Part shown: positions 19,078-61,504 of the stretch, piece by piece | How the letters are laid out: each line of letters starts with the position of its first letter | Numbering within the stretch: position 1 is the first letter of the stretch | Source: Chinchilla lanigera | Lineage: Eukaryota; Chordata; Mammalia; Rodentia; Chinchillidae | Direction: 5' to 3' | Assembly: GCF_000276665.1 (NCBI RefSeq) | Contig: NW_004955516.1 | Location: 3,419,345 to 3,483,344, forward strand | DNA length: 64,000 nucleotides | The notes under the pieces: model-generated | Databases searched by the model: none | What the model was told of the DNA's origin: nothing | Seen by the model: only the letters and a program-made list of their open reading frames with translations | Made by a program: the position numbers and the translations under genes

Positions 19078-20340
19078 TCAAAGGAAATTAGAATAACTAG
19101 ATAATTTGTTGAACAAAATACAAATATGAGGAAGGAGCATAAAAAATTCATAAAAAGGTACATAGAGTAATCAGATATATGAGAAAAGTCAATAACATTT
19201 TTAGAAATGGAAAATATAATTGTTATAATTATAAATTCAATGATTGGGTCAGAGAAATTAGATCTGAAGATAGAGACAGTGAGCTGGAAGAAAAATCAGA
19301 AAAAAAATTGCACAGAATTTGGTACTCAGAGACATACAAAAAAAATACAAGAAGATATGAGATAGTGAAATAATTACATATATATTTAAATGAATATCCA
19401 GAAAAAAAAGGATGGAGGAGTGATAACATGTCCATAAAAAATGGTGAAGAATTTTCTATAATTGTTGAAAAACCTAAATTTCCATGTTGATGAATTATAC
19501 AAAGCTCTGAGGACATTAATAAAAACATATGCTGCTAGATTATCATAGCAAAATTGTAGAACACCAGATTGTACAACACTATAAAATTTCAAAATCAGTG
19601 AAAGAAGGAAAAAAACAGAAGGATTACTGAAAAACTGAAAAACAGTTGGATGGACAAAAGACTGTTCAAGAGAAGACAGTGAATTATACCTATAGAGTAG
19701 AAAAACTAAATAACCGTGAACTGAGAATGGTATACCAAGATGAATTATCTCTTATGAGTGAGGTAAAAATAAAATAGTTCCAGATTTTTTAAAAAAATAC
19801 TGAAAATTTGCTACTGTATGTTCCTCAGGAAGAATGATTCCCCCAATGAAGATCTGAGACATAAGACAAAGTGACAAACAAATCAGCCAGTAAAAATGGA
19901 CTAGGCAGAATTTAAACCTATCTTGATGCTTATAAAAATGTTCACTTCAGATCATAAAATTAAGATACAACAAAACCAATTATAAAGAAATAATGTGCAG
20001 GACAGAAGATGACCAACTGGACTTACAGAGTGTTCTAACTTTTTTACGTTGCTCAGGAGGAAGAAAGAGATACTGAATAAAATTAGACTTTAAGCTCAGT
20101 GTGCATCTACAGTACTGTTTTGAGTTACTACATAACTATAGAATTAATGGAAATAGAATGCATAATACCAAAGCAAAAGAGGAAAGAAAATAAAATGTAA
20201 AAACTTAATCCTGAAGAAGGGAGAGAAGAAGAAAAAGAGAAGGCATAAATAAGATAGCAGAAATAATCCCAGATGCCTCAGCAATCACAATAACTACAAA
20301 TAAGCTGCACTTATCAAATGTAAGAGACCATGAAAATACA

Positions 20341-24536: not shown

Positions 24537-24607
24537 ATGGGGATTTAGCTCAGCAGCACAGCACCTGCCCAGCAAGCATGAGGTAGTGGTTCGATTTCCA
24601 GTACAAA
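24537..24607 (+). mobile_element. ID SINE, interrupted by gap
   Basis: gatggggatttagctcagc and ggttcgatttccagtac run into the run of Ns. Confidence 0.85.
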
Positions 24608-24744
24608 NNNNNNNNNNNNNNNNNNNNNNNNNNNNNNNNNNNNNNNNNNNNNNNNNNNNNNNNNNNNNNNNNNNNNNNNNNNNNNNNNNNNNNNNNNNNN
24701 NNNNNNNNNNNNNNNNNNNNNNNNNNNNNNNNNNNNNNNNNNNN
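24608..24744. other. Assembly gap (137 N)
   Basis: A run of N bases. It sits between two ID pieces, so the assembler probably failed on near-identical SINE copies. Confidence 1.
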
Positions 24745-24813
24745 AAGCGCCTGCCTGGCAAGCACAAGGTCATGAGTTCGTTCCCCGGTACCAGAAAAAA
24801 AAAAAAAAAAAAA
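24745..24813 (+). mobile_element. ID SINE 3' part after gap
   Basis: Starts at aagcgcctgcctggcaagc, then catgagttcgttccccgg and an A-tail. The 5' end is hidden in the gap. It is a second ID copy because the first already contains its own B box. Confidence 0.85.
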
Positions 24814-27741: not shown

Positions 27742-30440
27742 ATCATTCCTGGATGCAAGTATAACCTTGATAGCAAAACCAGAGAAGGATCCAACCAAAA
27801 TAGAGAACTACAGGTCAATCGCTTTAATGAACACAGAGGCAGAAATCCTCAGTAAGATACTGACAAGTAGAAAGCAGGAAATCATCAAGAAGATTATACA
27901 TCATGACCAAGTAGGATTCATCCCAGGGATGCAGGGATGTTCAACATATACAAATCACTAAATGTAATACACCATATCAACACAACCAAGGACAAGAATC
28001 ACATGATTCTCTCAAAAGATATAGAAAAAGCATTTGACAAGTTCCAACATCCTTTCATGATAAAAGCTCTACAGAAAAGATGGAATAGATGATCTTTACC
28101 TCAATCTGATAAAAAGTCATCTATGACAAACCAATAACCAACATCATATTAAATGGACAAAAACTGAAAGCTTTCACTCTAAAATCAGGAATAAGACAAA
28201 GATATCCATTATCACCACTCCTATTCAGCATAGTTCTGGAAACATTAGCCAGAGCAATTAGACAAGAGAAAGAAATAAAAGGAATAAAGATAGGAGAGGA
28301 ATAAGTTAAATAATAATTATTTGAAGATGACATGATACTCGACATAGACCTCAAAAACTCCACAAGACTTCCATATTTAATAATCAAATTTAACACTCAA
28401 AAATCAATAGCATTCTTGTACACAAACAGCAAATTCACTGAGACAAATTAGGGAAACCACACCTTTCACAATAGTATTGGAAAAAAATGAAATAATTAGG
28501 AATCAGTCTAATAAAGGAAGTAAAAAATCTTTACATGGAAAACTATTGTACTCTGAAAAAGGAGATTGACGAGGATATCAGAAAATGGAAAGCTATCCCT
28601 TGCTCTTGGGTGGGAAGAACCAACATAGTGAAAATGGCCACACTTCAAAAATTGTTATACAGGGCTAGGGATTTAGCTCAGCAGCACAGCACCTGCCTGG
28701 CAAGCACGAGGTCGTGAGTTCGATTTCCAGTACTGGAAAAAAATAAAAAACAAAAAAAAAACAAAAAAAAGAAAATTGTTATACAGATTTAATGCAATCC
28801 CAATCAAAATACCAATAGCATTCCTCACAGAATTAAACAATACTAACATTCATTTGGAACTAGAAGAGACCTAGAATAGCAAAGGCAGTTCTGGGCAACA
28901 AAGACAGGGTAGGGGGCATCACAATCCCTGATTTGAAACTGTACTACAAAGCTACTCTGATAAAAACAGTGTAGTACTGGCAAAAAAAAAAACCAGACCC
29001 AAGGACTAATGGAATAATTAGAAGATGCAGAGACACTCCAAGCACAGCCACTTTATCTCTGACAAGGGAGCCAAACACCTTCACTAGAAAAAAAGACAAT
29101 CTCTTTAATAAACGGTGCTAGAAAAACTGGCCTTCCACATGCCAAAGATTAAAACTAGACCCGTGCCTTTCACCATGCACTAAGCTAAAACTGAAATGGA
29201 TCAAAGATCTAAATGTTAAAACAGAAACACTAAAGCCACTGGAAGATAGAACAGGTAGAACTCTTAAAGATATAGGTGTAGGCAAAGACCTTATGAATAA
29301 AACCCTAATAACAGGAAATTTTACAAAGACTCAACAACTGGGATCTTATCTTACTAAAAAACTTCTGTACAGCAAAAGAAATCACCAACAGAGTGAAGAG
29401 ATAACCCACAAAGTGGGGAAAACTTTTGTCAGATGTTCCTCAAACAAAGGAATACTATCTAGAACATATGCAGAACTCAAAAAAATCAGACAGTCCAAAT
29501 TTAAAGACCCAATCTAAAAATGGGCATCTGAAATGAATAGACACTTTTCAGATGAAGAAGTAGAAACAACAAATAAATATATGAAAAAATATTCAACATC
29601 ACTGGTCATTTAAGAGATGCAAATTAAAGCACCGTTGAGATTCCATCTCACTCCAGAAAGAATGGCTATTATCAAGAAATCAACCAAAAACAAATGTTGG
29701 CAGGGCTGTGGGGAAAAAGGAACCTTTCTCCACTGTTGGTGGGAATATAAACTGGAGTGCAGCCACCATGGAAATCAGTGAGAAGATTTCTCATAAAAAT
29801 TAAAACTAGAGGTTCCTATTTGATCCAGCTATTCTCTTTCTTGTACCTTCTCAAAAGAATTAAAAGCAGTATACTACAGTGATATATGCACACCCATGTT
29901 TATAGCAGCATAGTTTGTGATAGCTAAATCTTGGAAACAGCCCAAATGCCCATCAACCAATAAATGGATAAAGAAGATGTGTTTTTTTTAATACAGTGGA
30001 GTACTACTCAGCCATAAAGAAGAATAAACTTGAGACATTTCTAGGTAAATGGATGCACCTAGAGACTATACTCTTAAGTGAAATAAATCAGACATACATG
30101 TGTAAATATCACCTTGTTTCTCTGGTGGGAGAAACCAAAAGTGTAAACAAAGACCAAAATGTGAAATAGGGAGAAAATGTTCAAATGGGAAGGGGAACTA
30201 GGGAGGAGGGAGGGAGAAAGGAGGGAAAGTAAAAGAAAGAATGAGAAAAGAAGGAAAAAATGGAAACAAAGCTTTTGGAAATAAGGAGGGGAAGAGGGAT
30301 TAAAGGGAAGGGAGAAGAATGAGAAATAAAGAAGAATAAAGCTATATGACGTACGGGTACAAATTCCCTATGATGAATGTTATCATTACGTATATCTAAA
30401 CTTTAACAATACACTTAATTAAAAAACAAAACAAAACAAA
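27742..30440 (+). mobile_element. 5'-truncated L1, ORF2 RT to 3' end
   Basis: A 2.7-kb L1 copy starting inside the ORF2 reverse transcriptase region. Visible protein pieces include NYRSIALMN and [13 protein letters not shown] (27767-27961). The catalytic FADD motif is read as FEDD near 28318-28337, an altered residue. Frames are repeatedly broken, so no active enzyme can come from this copy. It is followed by C-terminal ORF2, then a purine-rich 3' UTR and an A-rich end. It carries an ID insertion at 28663-28771. Confidence 0.9.
28663..28771 (+). mobile_element. ID SINE inside L1
   Basis: gggctagggatttagctcag and gagttcgatttccagtactg. TSD aaaattgttatacag (28648-28662 and 28772-28786). Confidence 0.97.
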
Positions 30441-35199: not shown

Positions 35200-35575
35200 G
35201 GGGGACTAGTGGCATTTATGCACAGTGGAATACTACCCTGTCACAAAGAGGGATAAACTTGAGACATTTATAGGAAAATGGATGCACCTTGAAACCATAA
35301 TGCTGAGATAAATCAGACACACAAGCTTAAATATATCACGGCGTCTCTTGTATGAGAAACCCAAATTATAAATAAGAGCAAAATAAAAGCAAGATAATAG
35401 AAAATAGGGAGAAAGATCTTTTGCATAAGAGGAGGGGACCAAGAGATGGGAGGGCGGGGAGAAGAGGGTGAATAAAAGAATTCCGATGCGTTATGGTCAC
35501 GTGCCACCTCGCAAGGAGGAGCACGATCACTGTGTGATGCACACATGTGCTAATGCAAACTGAAAACTGAAAAAA
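35200..35575 (+). mobile_element. L1 3' end
   Basis: gcacagtggaatactaccc, gataaacttgagacatttat, aaatggatgcacctt, then a purine-rich 3' UTR. Related to the L1 ends at 30,000 and 40,000. Confidence 0.8.
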
Positions 35576-37139: not shown

Positions 37140-38111
37140 AAATAATACATATTTGATCACTGTAAGGATCTGTTAGCACTCAAATAATCTTATCTACTAT
37201 GATGAGAAATGACTATTGTGTCATACAAATCTTATCCTTCGCTTGTATTAGGCAAGTGTTGAAAAACAATTTTTAAATTTACATTTATTTTAAGTGACAC
37301 ATAAAAACATAAAATCGTACTATTTAAGAGGTACCACATGATGTTTTGAAATAGAGATATATATATTTAATGTTTAAATTAGGTTTAACATCTATCTCCT
37401 CAAACACATCATTTCTTTCTGGGAGAAACATTAAGAATCCTTTTTGAGGTATATAATATGTTATCATTATTCATATTCCCCCCGCTGTGCAATAGCACAC
37501 CCGGAGTCCTTACTCCGAATCGTAACTCAGTGCTCACCGACCAACCCCAGCCCCTCCATACTCCCTCGGCTTCTGGTGGCCACCGTTCTACTCAACTTCT
37601 ATGAGACCAACCTTATTAGAGTCCACATAAGATCCTGATCATGCAGTCATTGTCTTTCTGTGCCTGGTTTATGTCATTTAGCATAGTGATCTCCAGCTCC
37701 AATCAAGTTGTCTCAACAGGATTTCATCCTTTTTGTGACTGAATAGTATTCCACGGCATACATGCCACATTTCTTTATGGATTCATCATTTGATAGACAC
37801 TTATATTGTTGCCATTTAGAGGCTATCATGTACAGTGCTGCAATAAACATGCAAGTATGAAAGTCTCTCCGCCACACTGACTTCATTTCCTGTGGGTATA
37901 CACCCAGCAGTGAGGCTGCTGGGTCATGTGGCAGTTGGGTTTTTAATTTCTTTTTTTTTTTGAGGAAACATCAGACTGTTTCCTATAATGACTGTACTCA
38001 TTTATACTCCCACCAACAGTATGCAAGGATTGCCTTTTCTCCACCTCCTCAGTAGTGCTTGTCTCTTAACTTTTTGATTATAATTGTCCTAACAGGTATG
38101 AGATAATTTTT

Positions 38112-52706: not shown

Positions 52707-53014
52707 AGAAGATTTAGTTAACTTCGGATCCCAATCCAGAGTTCAAACACAATAGGTTGATCACTCTACAAATAAGTTATCTATCAGGCCCCTTAGGGTT
52801 CTATCAGATACATTCCCAGGAGGAGCACACCGCCAGGCATACCACAGGTGCTTTAGACCGGATGCAGAAATCTCTCCTCTCTTCCCTCAGAGAGCTCCAG
52901 TCTTAACGAGGAACATTCTGAATAGCTCAGAATCTTACTTGTTCTGTTGACCCTGAGATCTCATTTCAGAATAATGACTACATGGAAGAGAGAGGGATAA
53001 TTATGGATCATTTA

Positions 53015-53082
53015 CACCACTGATGGCGAACCTTTTAGAGGTTTCAATGATACAAACAGCCCATTCGCCACCGCTAATCTAG
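53015..53082. mobile_element. Possible short hAT-like MITE
   Basis: A 68-bp stretch with inverted ends: actgatggcgaa at left and, in reverse, agcggtggcgaa at right (9 of 12). It resembles the terminal motif of Charlie-type elements. No TSD resolved. Confidence 0.35.
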
Positions 53083-53085
53083 ACC

Positions 53086-53727
53086 AAGACCTTTATTTTT
53101 CTAACGAGGAAACTGAGGCCTGGAAAGCTGATGAGGCATGCTTAGCATTCGTGCGTGGGCTCTGGCACAGGAAGAACTGGAGCAAGTTTCCTAAGTCTCC
53201 TGTCATTATCCTTTCCACGAGGCCACACTGCGTTGCAGGACTGTAATTGGTAAAGCCCAGGAACCACAGGAATGGTTGGCAGTGCTCCCTCATCTTAGGC
53301 TGGTGCCCATCACAATGAAAGGGCTGCTGTGCACAGCACAGTGAGGACCACCTGTCACGGTGATACAGGAAAAGCACAAGAGCAAAGTTGGCAGACTTGT
53401 GGGCAGCCGTTCTCTGTAGGCCCAGGTGGTGAGTTTAATGTTCCCTCAAATTTAGTTGTGCTTCTACTTCACTAGCCAAAATAAAGCCTTTGGATCTCAT
53501 TACACAGTTTACTCCCTTGATTTTTACATCCTCTTTCTTATTTTCTTAATCAAGATGGTTATTAACACTTTTTGTGGTCTAAATTTTTGCCACGCTGCTT
53601 CAGCAATCTTCCTAATTTCTGCTTTGCTTTGACCATCTTAGACTTGAGCTATTGTGTGGTTTCTGTGTGATGCTGACAGTTGTAGAAGGGAAATTAGGAG
53701 TTACTTTTATTATATGTACTTATTTAT
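53086..53727. other. Unassigned
   Basis: A 94-codon minus frame (53093-53377) has no domain. The part 53440-53720 is AT-rich and repeat-poor. Confidence 0.3.
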
Positions 53728-53868
53728 TTTTCCAGACAGGGTCTCACTATGTAGTGCAGGCTGACCTTGAACCCACTATGTAGCCCAGGCTGGCCTCGAA
53801 CTCACAGCAATCCCCTTGTCTCAGCCTCCCAAGTGCTGGGATCACCAACACGTACCACGACGCATGGC
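53728..53868 (-). mobile_element. B1-type SINE
   Basis: Reverse B1 with duplication. TSD aggagttacttttatta. Confidence 0.9.
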
Positions 53869-53972
53869 CCAGGAGTTACTTTTATTATTGATTACTGAAC
53901 CTGTTTTCAAACAACTTGAATGTAAACTTGAAAAACCATAGACTGTTGTAGCTGGACATTTCTTTAGAGTTT

Positions 53973-54130
53973 AGCTGGGCATGGTGACGCATGCCTGTAA
54001 TCCCAGCACTCGGGAGGCTGAGGCAGGAGGTTCGTTGCAAGTTCAATACCAGCTTGGGCTACAAAATGAGCTCAAGGCCAGTCTGAACTACATAGCGAGA
54101 CCCTGTCTCAAGAAGACCAAAAAAAAAAAG
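53973..54130 (+). mobile_element. B1-type SINE
   Basis: gctgggcatggtgacgcatg, duplication, gagaccctgtctcaagaaga, A-tail. Confidence 0.95.
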
Positions 54131-54149
54131 AGCTCATCCTACCCAGGAA

Positions 54150-54238
54150 AGGAGTTGCTGGGCTACTTAGTAAGTTCAAGGTCAGCCTGCACTACATAAT
54201 GAGACCCTGTCTGGAAAAATAAATAAATACATAAAATA
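54150..54238 (+). mobile_element. 5'-truncated B1-type SINE
   Basis: Begins inside the second half (gctgggctacttagtaag), then gagaccctgtctgg and an (AAAT)n tail. Confidence 0.8.
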
Positions 54239-55103
54239 AAAGTAACTCCTACTGCCTATGACAGCTGCAAGTTGGAGCGATTAAATTTTATCAAATCCTC
54301 CTGGAAGGAAGGCACTGTGATTAACACAGAAACATAAGCATCTACTGTCCTTTTCAGTATATGGCTGTCACTTTGAGGTAAGAAAGAAACCGACGGCAAC
54401 CAGACTTTGGAATACCCCCCTGCAATCTATTTTGACTGAAGCCTTCACCCAAAAGAGAGCAAAGCAGACTTCTGAATTTACTGAGGCTATATTATTTGCT
54501 TGGCAAGGTGTTAAAACACATTTTAGAATCTTGCTAGGCATCCAACATAGGCAAGTGCCTTTAAGAAAAAAAATATATATTTATCTCCAAAATATAAGGA
54601 AACAGCATCTTTGAGTCTGAATTTTAAAGCATTGGTATTTTAGAAAAGTCAAACGAACACATCCAAAATCCAGAAGCTTGACTCTCAGCTCTTAGATCTG
54701 AAGGTACTCTGTTAAGTAAAATATTTAGATACCTAAGCTCTAGGATCTGCCTTGATCAGAGTAATCCGTTTCTGTGTAGAAAATTATAAAATTCTAAGAC
54801 ATTTTAATGCTTTGTCTTCAATTTAGTGTGAAAAATTCTGCTGGAAATAGGAAAAAAAATTTTTCAGTAGCCCTTCCCTTCCAGCAGAAACAAGCAGCCT
54901 GCCATGCGCCCTCAGAGCAGACGCCCGAGGGGAGAGGGCGCCCAGAGGCAGCGGCCTGCAGATGTCCGTTCACTCCACATGCGCGGCCCCGACAGCACGC
55001 TCCCTCTGAGGGTCACCATTTGCTCAAGGGGAAAATGAAGAAGAAACAAGCTCCCGGAAATTAGTTCTACTAAGTTTTAAGAAGGCAAGTTTTAAAGACT
55101 AGG
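54239..55103. other. Unassigned, includes a GC-richer patch
   Basis: The patch 54890-55030 contains several CpGs (gacgcccgagg, catgcgcggccccgac). An 85-codon frame (54807-55064) shows no domain. No promoter evidence beyond composition. Confidence 0.3.
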
Positions 55104-55725
55104 AATAGCAAGTAAGCATGTGAAAAGATGTTCCATATCACGTGTCATGAGGGATTTGCGAATTAGAACAAGATACCACTACACATGGAGGGCAGTGGCC
55201 CAAACGTGGAACACTGATAACACTCTAGCCTGGTGCGAAGGTTGAACAATGGGAATTCTCATTACCGGTGGGAATGTAAAATGCTACAGCCACTTTCGAA
55301 AACAAGTTTGGCAGTTGCTTTTACAAAACTAAACAGCTGGGCTTGGGGTTGCACACCTGTAATCCCAGTGTTTGGGACGCTGGGGGAGGAGGATCACTGT
55401 GAACTCAAGACCAACCAGGGCTACAGAGTGAGTTCAAGGCCAGCTTAGACTACACAGTGAGACCCTGTCTCAAAGATCAAACCAAACAAAACAGCTAAGC
55501 ATGCCCTTATCATATGATCAAACAATTGCACTCTTTGAGGGGTTGCAAAGTTATGTCCATACAAAAACCTCCATACAGACATTTATATCAGCTTCGTTCA
55601 TAACAAAAACTTGGAAACAATCAAGATGTCCTTCGGTAGGTAAATGAGTAAATAGCTAGACACTGGGATGTTATTCAACACTGGAAAGAAGTGAGTTTTC
55701 AAGTCAAGAAAAGACATGAAAAACT
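55104..55725 (+). mobile_element. L1M ORF2 3' part, left of inversion
   Basis: gcatgtgaaaagatgttcca, agataccactacacatg, ccggtgggaatgtaaaatgc, gttattcaacactggaaag, then aaaagacatgaaaaact. The L1 continues in reverse orientation at 57436. A B1 interrupts it (55336-55488). Confidence 0.85.
55336..55488 (+). mobile_element. B1-type SINE
   Basis: Diverged B1 with duplication. TSD aaacagct (55331-55338, 55489-55496). Confidence 0.85.
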
Positions 55726-55833
55726 GGGGCTGGGGATTTAGCTCAGCGGCAAAGCGCCTGCCTGGCAAGTGCAAGGTCGTGAGTTCGGTTCCCGGTACTG
55801 GAGAAAAACCAAAAAAAAACAAAAAAACAAAAA
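55726..55833 (+). mobile_element. ID SINE at left inversion breakpoint (ID1)
   Basis: Full-length A58G-group ID with a compound A-tail. Its left TSD is tgaaaaact (55717-55725). The partner TSD is missing on the right and lies inverted at 57436-57444. Confidence 0.95.
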
Positions 55834-55848
55834 TAAATCCCCAGCCCC
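55834..55848 (-). mobile_element. ID2, 5' fragment (15 nt)
   Basis: taaatccccagcccc is the reverse of the ID head. It is followed by the LTR copy of the ID2 TSD (ccagtgatataatt, 55850-55863). Confidence 0.85.
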
Positions 55849-55849
55849 T

Positions 55850-56213
55850 CCAGTGATATAATTCAATGTGAGTCTAAGGGCCTGATGACTGGCCTTGTGG
55901 GGGGCACTGATGTGAGCCCCTGAATTGGAGGCCCAAAAACTAGGAATTTCAAGGGCAAGAGAAGATGAACATCTTCATTCAAGAAGAGAGAAAGAGAATT
56001 CACACTTACTCCATCTTTTTGTTCAGGTTGGACCCTCAATAAATTGGATGATACCCACACATGTTGGGCAGGGCACATCTTCTTTACTCAGTCTACTGAT
56101 TCAAATGCTAATCTCTTCCAAATCACTCTCACCAACACACCCAAAATAACATCTTGCCAGCTATGTGGGTGTCCCTTAGCCCAGTCAAGGTGATACATAT
56201 AATTAACCATCAC
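55850..56213 (-). mobile_element. MLT2-type ERVL LTR, 5' part, inverted
   Basis: Right end reads cagtcaaggtgatacatata and attaaccatcac, the reverse of an MLT2 start. At the left it stops at aattatatcactgg (reverse), the ID2 target site. The 3' part is at 57501-57670. Confidence 0.8.
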
Positions 56214-56916
56214 AGATTCCTTAGAGCATCATCTCTCATATTATCCAGTTGAGAAAGTCTGGTCTGTATCAAATGGTTGGTTGGTTGGTTGGTTTGTATC
56301 GACAATATCTTTTCACCTTTCCAAGTGTGATGAGTGTAGCTAAGTTTATACATAGGTCCTGGTGACCTCATTGAGATCACACAGGTAATGCGATTTTGTC
56401 ACCTAGTGCCCAAGTATGACCGTTGACCAGACCATGAAGAGCTCTTTTAAAGCTCAGCCTTCAATGACTACACAGTCTTTGGTGGCTACAAATAGTCTAT
56501 CCCATGACTGAACCAAGCTACTTACCTTGTGTTGGATATCCTGGCTGCCTCTCATTTTTTACAAAGCTGCTTCTCTTCTCTTCTCCTCCTTCTTTCTCCT
56601 CCTTCTCCTACTGTTCCTCTTAAATTAAAACAATCCTGGAAGCAGTGTAAATTTTGGAGTAGATGAGGGAGAGATTTAAGACTACTTAGCCAACTAGTGT
56701 AATAGCTCAGAATGAGGTCATGAGATCCTACATTCAGATGGAGGCAGAAGGCGTAGAATGGACTAGACCAAGTCAGACTTACAAGGAACAAAGTGAGGTA
56801 TTTGGATCTGTTTGACTCCACATATATGGCTTTCAAATTTTGCTTTTATACTGTGCTCACTTAATCAAGTTCCTGATTCAATTTTTAAAATAATTTTATT
56901 ATTCTAAAGTAGTTTT
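56214..56916. other. Unassigned, inside the inverted block
   Basis: Contains a (GGTT)n run at 56273-56294 and a C/T-rich run at 56565-56620. A 94-codon minus frame (56552-56836) lacks a domain. Confidence 0.4.
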
Positions 56917-57018
56917 TTATTTTTTTTTTTTGGTTTTTTCTCCGGTACCGGGAACCGAACTCACGACCTTGCGCTTGCCAGGCAGGCGCTTTTGCTGCTG
57001 AGCTAAATCCCCAGCCCC
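56917..57018 (-). mobile_element. ID SINE, A58G group
   Basis: Reverse strand: gagttcggttcccggtacc and ggagaaaaaacc. TSD ctaaagtagtttt (56904-56916, 57019-57031). Inserted near the 3' end of the inverted L1. Confidence 0.95.
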
Positions 57019-57031
57019 CTAAAGTAGTTTT

Positions 57032-57435
57032 AAATTCACAGCAAAATTAAGAGGGAGGTACAGAGTTCCCAAATATTTCTTCATCCTCACACAAGCATAG
57101 CATCCTATTGTCAAAGTGGTACATATGTTCCAGCTGATGAACCTGCATTGACACATCATCACCCAAAGCCAGTCATTTACACAAGGGTTCACTCTTAGCG
57201 CTGTACATTCTATGCTGTTACATAAATACATAGTGATGTGTCCATTATTATAGTATCACACAAGAGTAGTTCCGGTGTCTTAGAAATCCTCTATACTCTG
57301 CCTTTTCAACCTTCCCCCACCCCACCCCAGCATCATTTTACTGTTTCTCTAGTTTTCCAGAATGTCATCTACTTGGAATTATATGTTATGTAGCCTTCAC
57401 AGATCACCTTCTTTCACTTAGCAATACGCACTTAA
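57032..57435 (-). mobile_element. L1M 3' end, inverted
   Basis: In reverse: ttaagtgcgtattgctaag, tgaaagaaggtgatctg, gacattctggaaaac, ggttcatcagctggaacata, then a gctgtgaatttaaaactac end. It continues the L1 at 55104-55725. Confidence 0.85.
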
Positions 57436-57444
57436 AGTTTTTCA

Positions 57445-57500
57445 GGTCGTGAGTTCGGTTCCCGGTACCGGAGAAAAACCAAAAAAAAAAAAAAAAAAAC
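57445..57500 (+). mobile_element. ID2, 3' fragment
   Basis: Begins ggtcgtgagttcggttccc, then ggagaaaaacc and an A-run. Right TSD aattatatcactgg (57501-57514) matches the LTR copy at 55850-55863 in reverse. Confidence 0.9.
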
Positions 57501-57670
57501 AATTATATCACTGGCTCCCAGGGTCTCCAGCGTGCAGATGGCTATGGTGAGACTTCTTGGCCTCCATAATTGTGTACACCAATTTCCATAATAAATCCCT
57601 TATATTTCTCTCTATATGTCCTACTGGAACTGTTTCTCTCGAGAACTCTGAGTATATTGACTCATACATT
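57501..57670 (+). mobile_element. MLT2-type ERVL LTR, 3' part
   Basis: ggcctccataattgtgtaca, atatgtcctactggaac, tgtttctctcgagaactc, ending with ttgactcatacatt. This is the MLT2 3' order. Confidence 0.75.
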
Positions 57671-59571
57671 CACTGTGTTAAGTGAAATTTATGGGAAGCC
57701 ATTGTTTTGGATTGAGCTCCTCTACTAGGCCCAACAGACCAAACTAGATAGAGTCACTCTTGCTAGGTGCCATGTAATCAAACTGAACATTGTGCTGATG
57801 GCTGTTGAAATCCGTCCTCCCTCCCCAGAGCGAAGAGTCCTCAAACTGGAGACTACCAAGCACTCCTTCAGGTCCTGAACAGAAATGCCTGGATTTGGAG
57901 CTCACACTGGAGGACAGAGTGCACATAGCTGAGCTATGGGGCATTGTGGGGGGAGGTCACTGTCTGAATTGTCTTATGACAGTTATGAAACTGCCCAAAG
58001 GGCTTGACCAGGTTCCTAAATGGAAGAGTTGACTGAGATGGCAGACATCTGCCCCTGGTGATTGGGGGTAGAGGTGCAAGGTTTTATCTTGTGCCCCTGA
58101 AAAAAGACACTCTAAGCAGAGATGGTTCTTTTCCATTTCAGGTAAAGATTCAGCACAAGGTAAGCACTTGGGGGCCGGGGAGCAACTGAGGCTTAGAGAT
58201 TTGGTAAATGTCAGTGTGTAAATTATAAGAAGACAATGCAAGTGGTAAGAAAAGGAAAGTTCAGAGGGTGTGGGCAAGGTCCCCAGGGAACCTCAAACCA
58301 TCATAGAGAGAAAGAAGCGCTTCTGAGATTCCAGTGCATTTTGAGGGTCTGGAGTGTGAGCTTTATTCATCATCAAAATGAACCTTATTTCTTCCTTTGG
58401 GTGACATAGGCCAATGCAAGTTATTTGTGGAACAAACACTCAAATCCAGGATGATCCTTCCAGTTACTAGCTTTCCAGGACCCATCTCTCAAAGATGGGA
58501 AGGAATGGCATGCGTTTCGCCATTTTCCTTTCTCTTAGCGGCGCTCAACCCTTGAGCAAAAGTCTTTGTCCCTTTTAGCAGGTAGGATGCCTCTATTTGC
58601 AAGGCGGTTGTGTGAGAATGCTGCTGTTCACAGAAAGCCGGAGAGCAGCCAGGCTTGCTTCAGGAGAGGGGGTGGGACCAGGGTGTCCCTTCCAGCGCTC
58701 CACAAGAATGGCCACCACCGTGATGCAGGTACAGGGGAGCCTGCCGTCTTTCTCCCTACTCCAGCTATGCAACCATGCAGCCAGGGCCCCATTAGCTGCA
58801 AAAAGTCAAACGGTCCATCCCCTGCTCACGGAGAGAGCAGCACTAACGTCTCACAGAACCCACGATTTGCTTCCTTACATGAACAATCGGCTCCTTGCCC
58901 ACGAGACAAAGAGAGTCTCACTTCCTCGGCCTATGAGGCTCCCCACCCCAAAACTGATAAGTCACCTACCTTTGGTTTTGATAATGATTCAAAATAAAGA
59001 CATATGTTCACTTTGCATCTTACAAATCAGGCATTCCTGACTCTGAAATGATTTTCTGGGTTCAGTGTCTCAGAACCATAATAATTGACTTGGCAATATG
59101 AAAAGTCATTTACAAGCAAAGTATGATGAGGCTCCTCTTCATTTGATACTAGAAATGTTTTCCATAAATCTAGCTTATTAAAACAAGTCTCTCATAATAT
59201 TTATGCAATTTCCAAATGAGATGGTCATAAACCTGCAGTAAAATATTAAGTCTATTCTCTGCTGATCATAATGATGCAAATATTGATGTGGGCTCACTGA
59301 GACACACCGCACAGATGCCCATCAAAATGAATAGATGGTAATACTGAAATATTTCTTCGTACCATAAACGAGATTATGTGCTTTATTTTTCTCTTAGTCT
59401 TCTCTAATGAGGAGAGACATCTTTGGTATTTCTGAATGTGATATTCACATGTCTTCACATTTTTTATGATGAAGTTTCTGTATAATGTATTTTCACACAG
59501 TCACTCCCCAGCAAACATTTCAAGGCACCTTGCTAGATACTTTAGGGAATAAAAATTCAACAAAGTGATTC
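57671..59571. other. Unassigned stretch of about 1.9 kb
   Basis: No transposon that I can name. A passage at 57700-58150 (gagctcctctactaggccc, ggtgccatgtaatcaaactg) may be an ancient repeat. Two overlapping frames of 143 and 147 codons (58566-58997, 58597-59040) have no domain signal. The AT-rich part 59040-59560 is repeat-poor. Confidence 0.3.
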
Positions 59572-61305: not shown

Positions 61306-61404
61306 TCTTTTTTTTGGTTTTGTTTATTTTTGGTATCAGGAATCGAACTCAGGACCTTGAGTTTGCCAGGCAGACACTGTGCCACTAAGCTATAGCCCCG
61401 GCCC
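61306..61404 (-). mobile_element. ID SINE, first of a pair
   Basis: Reverse strand: gggccggggctatagcttag, gagttcgattcctgatacc. Confidence 0.9.
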
Positions 61405-61415
61405 CCACTGTTCAC

Positions 61416-61504
61416 TTTTTTTTTTTTTTTAGTACCAGGAATCAAACTCAGCACCTTGCGCTTGCCAGGCATGCGCTTATGCCGCTGAGCTATTTCCTCG
61501 GCCC
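61416..61504 (-). mobile_element. ID SINE, second of a pair
   Basis: Reverse strand: gggccgaggaaatagctca, gagtttgattcctggtact. The 11-mer ccactgttcac/t stands before and after it, so it inserted at the edge of its neighbour. Confidence 0.9.

Follow-up and report, generated by a model that had tools for sequence, protein, structure and literature searches.

A probable young 1.6-kb inversion with ID SINEs of one direction at both ends in Chinchilla lanigera

Inversions with retrotransposons at both ends are a known kind of event. In a human-chimpanzee survey (PLoS One 2008, PMC2603318), 49 of the 252 inversions had inverted pairs of L1 or Alu elements and 75 of the 252 had also lost DNA, the losses given in the part of that article drawn on here being at least 94 bp. 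One of its 41 L1-associated inversions lies between two L1 elements that point the same way; its authors propose that both elements broke and that the fragment was repaired in backward orientation. All 15 inversions in the relevant passage of a human survey (Nat Commun 2022, PMC9675761) have TEs in opposite orientation, 73% of them with joints consistent with homologous recombination; ten rearrangements with junctions in poly-A tails are also mentioned, although the passage does not state their types. Same-direction element pairs at the ends of inversions are rare in these sections of the two surveys (1 of 252 and none of 15, respectively). Among the literature matches listed, in which subscription journals are thinly covered, no title or opening of an abstract names the present locus or inversions bounded by ID elements.

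The locus considered here lies in a 64-kb stretch of the Chinchilla lanigera genome (contig NW_004955516.1), which was analysed as a whole and is termed the window. Between about 55.7 and 57.5 kb, part of an L1 element and a complete ID SINE (ID1), both on the plus strand, are followed by a block on the reverse strand and then, again on the plus strand, by the 3' part of a second ID (ID2) and the rest of an LTR (Table 1). The block contains, on its reverse strand, the head of ID2, a copy of the TSD of that element (TSD2), part of the LTR, DNA that has no second copy within the 64-kb window, a third ID (ID3) and further L1 sequence. The original prediction was that this segment has been flipped, and a letter-by-letter check bears this out, in that turning the block around restores two ID SINEs together with their TSDs. 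Both ID1 and ID2 had been recognised in that prediction, which missed ID3. With the block turned back all three IDs point in the same direction, ID1 and ID2 both being on the plus strand. This common direction, the rearranged order, the split TSDs and the loss of 33 nt from ID2 are established directly.

Table 1. Features of the rearranged locus, in positions of the window
Feature	Positions	Strand	Remarks
L1 5' part, old, end of ORF2	55060-55725	+	interrupted by a SINE; weak ORF2p match
7SL-type (B1-like) SINE inside L1	about 55336-55492		SRP-RNA-like match at 55336-55473, below the Rfam gathering score
TSD1, left copy, TGAAAAACT	55717-55725	+	as matched, 9 nt
ID1	55726-55833	+	complete copy of the young group, with A-rich tail
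Inverted block	55834-57444	-	1,611 bp; split TSDs, ID2 halves, L1 join placement
ID2 head	55834-55848	-	15 nt, inverted; identical to young ID consensus 1-15
TSD2, inverted copy, AATTATATCACTGG	55850-55863	-	exact match
LTR 5' part, inverted	55864-56213	-	read from sequence; putative MLT2-type
ID3	56913-57018	-	young ID inside the block; 13-nt matching TSDs AAAACTACTTTAG, 13/13
L1 continuation past ORF2 end, inverted	57019-57435	-	placement test of the first 60 nt
TSD1, second copy, TGAAAAACT	57436-57444	-	inverted
ID2 3' part with A-tail	57444-57500	+	57444-57480 identical to young ID consensus 49-85
TSD2, right copy, AATTATATCACTGG	57501-57514	+	exact match
LTR 3' part	57515-57670	+	read from sequence; outer end not firm

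The case for an inversion is carried by ID2 and the TSDs. ID2 had been described as split into an inverted 15-nt head and a 3' end with about 33 nt lost between them, and the two halves do correspond to positions 1-15 and 49-85 of a young ID consensus, which was read off the alignment of the ID copies in the window. The halves do not overlap, positions 16-48 (33 nt) are absent, and there are 0 differences from the consensus over 52 positions. The 14-nt TSD2 occurs twice in the window, once on each strand, and each occurrence lies beside one half of ID2; a single extra base, 55849, separates the head from the inverted copy. Under a flip after both ID insertions, as had been proposed, the halves of ID2 each regain the TSD copy that belongs to them and ID1 recovers its second TSD; this is supported as the simplest history found for these pairings, and the modest L1 evidence given below is in agreement with it. 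The proposed order of events, with L1 and LTR followed by ID1 and ID2 and then by an inversion with a small deletion, also holds. The breakpoints, which had been placed in two IDs, do fall within the body of ID2, but at ID1 the break lies at the border between A-tail and TSD and not in the ID body.

SINEs are abundant in the window, which has 24 near-full ID copies including ID1, as well as 7SL-like (B1-type) elements. ID1, ID2 and ID3 fit the description of an ID SINE, with many like copies, an A-rich tail and TSDs. The head of an ID SINE is tRNA-derived, and an Rfam scan of 53000-59500 (E up to 1) gave no tRNA match to ID1, ID2 or ID3. In the alignment of copies, ID1 and ID2 fall in the least diverged ID group of the window and ID3 belongs to the same young group; the two differences of ID1 from the young consensus are both C>T at CpG. 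Since the inversion would be later than the near-consensus ID1 and ID2, it appears recent on the scale of the young ID group, a relative age to which no absolute date is attached.

The TSD of ID1 (TSD1) had been said to have its partner only in inverted form at the far end of the block, and the partner is indeed found there on the minus strand; a search of the whole window gives a third copy of the 9-mer at 19628-19636, which is unrelated. Base 57444 is common to the second TSD1 copy and the 3' part of ID2, an overlap of 1 nt. TSDs that exceed a 99% null (the 99% score from 200 random positions) were measured for 18 of the 23 other IDs in the window and are 10-17 nt long, with a median of 15; eight of the 18 begin with AAA. 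At 9 nt, TSD1 is shorter than all 18, a comparison to be read with the five of the 23 IDs that have no clear TSD, so that shorter TSDs may exist. The DNA before ID1, at 55709-55725, reads AAAAGACATGAAAAACT and would fit as a 17-nt TSD, of which the left TSD1 copy is perhaps the end. Because 9 nt is short against 10-17 nt and AAAAGACATGAAAAACT precedes ID1, the second copy was probably trimmed, the break having removed about 8 of 17 nt. The alternative that the insertion of ID1 and the inversion were one event, joined exactly at the ID1 tail, is disfavoured by the same comparison with the 18 measured TSDs and by the poor L1-endonuclease site that a TSD of 9 nt would entail. Elsewhere in the window, at 61308-61504 on the minus strand, two tandem IDs apparently have a common target, for which TGAACAGTGG scores above the null and AGTGAACAGTG, mismatched at one position, falls short of the 99% null; this tandem looks as if one ID had inserted at the TSD of the other.

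Two older repeats are divided between the block and its surroundings. The LTR halves would be the two parts of one putative MLT2-type element (an ERVL LTR), and within the 64-kb window the LTR has no second copy. The L1 had been claimed to stop at 55725 and to resume in reverse from 57435. When translated, 55490-55725 matches human LINE-1 ORF2p at about residues 1185-1242 in the PDB (E 0.22, which is weak alone). With human ORF2p from the PDB as the target, the left piece aligns to residue 1242 with 15.3 bits and the joined pieces to residue 1266 with 20.6 bits, so that joining gains 5 bits over the left piece alone. The first 60 nt of the inverted piece were also placed against five other L1 copies, and the highest of 3,222 placements in the block falls at the true start, for which the best of seven adjacent starts (57437) was used. 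Of the 126,893 placements in the whole window, 62 reach the score of the true start. They cluster at 12 places, the true one among them; the other 11 include one L1 end, at 35288, only some of them are L1, and several look unrelated. The five references had been found by ORF2p peptide or by the left piece, their junctions were set by eye after the inverted piece had been seen, and the L1 end at 35288 was known and left out. Further L1 ORF2 ends are present in the window at 30053, 40077 and 35288 on the plus strand and at 37704, 42523 and 45540 on the minus strand, five of these six having served as references.

Other searches did not recover the L1 join. The right piece alone has no match in the PDB, and a 21-residue ORF2p target missed the place, its best score in the block (26) lying elsewhere and the maxima of shuffled blocks having a mean of 26. 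In local DNA alignment the right piece rose above shuffles at none of nine candidate L1 places, and the left piece outscored every one of 40 shuffles at two of the nine. Pfam matched none of three L1 peptide pieces, and an exact-pattern search of viral contigs for stray copies of the L1 or the LTR returned 0 and 0. The claimed continuity of the L1 therefore draws on its top placement in the block and on the gain in the ORF2p match, and fails in the tests of the right piece; we regard the join as supported but not proven, by evidence that is modest and mixed.

The explanation that we consider probable is a young 1.6-kb inversion produced by two breaks and end joining. The starting point would have been an old L1 and an LTR lying near each other, where three young IDs of the same group inserted, all in one direction, with ID3 presumably present before the flip; turned back, the order would run from the ID1 tail through TSD1 to TTAAGTGCG. 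Two double-strand breaks, one at the border of the ID1 A-tail and TSD and the other in the 5' half of ID2, would have freed a fragment that was rejoined backwards by end joining, ID2 having lost 33 nt and TSD1 probably about 8 nt together with some tail A's. Read by eye, the junctions each have at most 1 nt of microhomology (A at 57444 and possibly T at 55834), with 33 nt lost at one and presumably about 8 nt at the other. Breakage and rejoining are among the parts of the history that we infer, and end joining fits best because microhomology is limited to 1 nt or less and bases have been lost.

The same inversion could also have arisen through replication template switching of the FoSTeS/MMBIR type between the two ID neighbourhoods, which we think unlikely. 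In the passage cited above (PMC9675761), human Alu-mediated inversions with deletions of 38-251 bp and small insertions are taken to show signs of replication-based repair, but the joints at the present locus show, by eye, no inserted or copied-in bases beside their minimal microhomology, a reading made, past the end of the ID1 tail, on the present bases and not on ancestral ones. It is more doubtful still that the order is an artefact of assembly, in which a 1.6-kb contig bounded by two IDs was placed backwards. Both block ends are at ID copies, and the assembly does break at IDs, since the sole N run of the window (137 N, 24608-24744) sits between two same-direction ID pieces (24538-24812); both junctions of the block are nevertheless without N, and no overlap of more than 1 nt is present at which contigs might have been merged.

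The presence of SINEs at both breakpoints, and the fact that ID1 and ID3 are inverted repeats today, might suggest non-allelic homologous recombination between inverted SINE copies, which is highly improbable here. Recombination between direct copies gives a deletion and not an inversion; ID1 and ID2 stood in direct orientation before the flip, and homologous recombination between them would therefore have deleted the intervening DNA. Two IDs at the breakpoints had been noted previously, but their direct orientation, which argues against recombination, had not been drawn out. This explanation is further contradicted by the joints, which lie at non-matching positions (the A-tail/TSD border against positions 15 and 49) and yield no chimeric full-length ID, as ID1 is whole and ID2 is split, and by ID3, which keeps its own matching TSDs and so has exchanged no flanks. 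Inversion of the L1 5' end by twin priming at insertion would account for two L1 parts in opposite orientation, but it has practically no chance of being correct, as it leaves the split ID2 and its TSDs unexplained and is contradicted by the geometry, the minus-strand reading putting the 5' part beyond the 3' end of the L1 and not before it as in the twin-priming layout.

Within the preferred account of two breaks and end joining there are hints that breakage was favoured at ID sequences. When intervals of 500-5,000 bp were drawn at random, 580 of 200,000 had an ID within 10 nt of each end, a chance figure that is open to ascertainment, as inversions with split TSDs are easier to notice. This variable-length control was preferred to one with intervals fixed at 1,611, in which 0 of 60,490 did so, a count that with 32 ID pieces mostly reflects ID spacing. 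It is conceivable, though in our estimation improbable when all its steps are taken together, that the like-oriented IDs paired as in an abortive direct-repeat deletion and held the 1.6-kb segment as a loop, and that end joining closed this loop backwards after cuts at the A-tail border of one ID and within the promoter half of its partner. If so, young direct ID pairs would carry a predictable risk of inversion besides that of deletion. A hairpin formed by the lost 33 nt was rejected as a cause, the matching stretch of ID1 folding no better than shuffles (z 0.99), and the body of ID1 likewise folds no better than shuffles (z 0.68).

The inversion has placed two ID heads (55726-55740 and 55834-55848) as a perfect 15-nt inverted repeat, and 55727-55870, taken as single-stranded DNA, exceeds 199 of 200 shuffles in folding stability (z -2.37). 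Because this stability derives from the palindrome made by the inversion, it is a consequence and not a cause. ID1 and ID3 now form an inverted pair about 1.1 kb apart, and an inverted SINE pair is the usual substrate for further inversion. In this base-resolved example the ancestral order, the type of joint and the relative timing can all be read from nested repeats and split TSDs alone, the inversion falling after two insertions from the least diverged ID group. Although nothing known is overturned, the locus lends itself to the question of whether SINEs can serve as sites of breakage and not just as recombination partners.

The closest described systems resemble this locus in different respects. 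Like inversions in the passage cited from the human survey (PMC9675761), it is small and has TEs at its ends, and some of those inversions lost 38-251 bp; the ten rearrangements with poly-A junctions are a further likeness. In contrast to the 15 inversions described there, all with TEs of opposite orientation, ID1 and ID2 were direct. With the retrotransposon recombination-mediated inversions (RRMI) of the human-chimpanzee survey, as described in the part of the article considered (PMC2603318), it has in common a kilobase-scale inversion, like retrotransposons spanning both breakpoints and a loss of DNA, which amounts to 33 nt here as against the stated losses of at least 94 bp. The 49 inverted pairs of that survey gave chimeric elements, whereas the pair at this locus is direct and its joints do not match; of the features by which RRMI are recognised, like elements are found at both breakpoints, and opposite orientation and chimeras at matching positions are not. 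The same-direction L1 pair mentioned in that article (PMC2603318) likewise consists of two like elements in one direction, L1 in that case and a pair of ID SINEs in this one.
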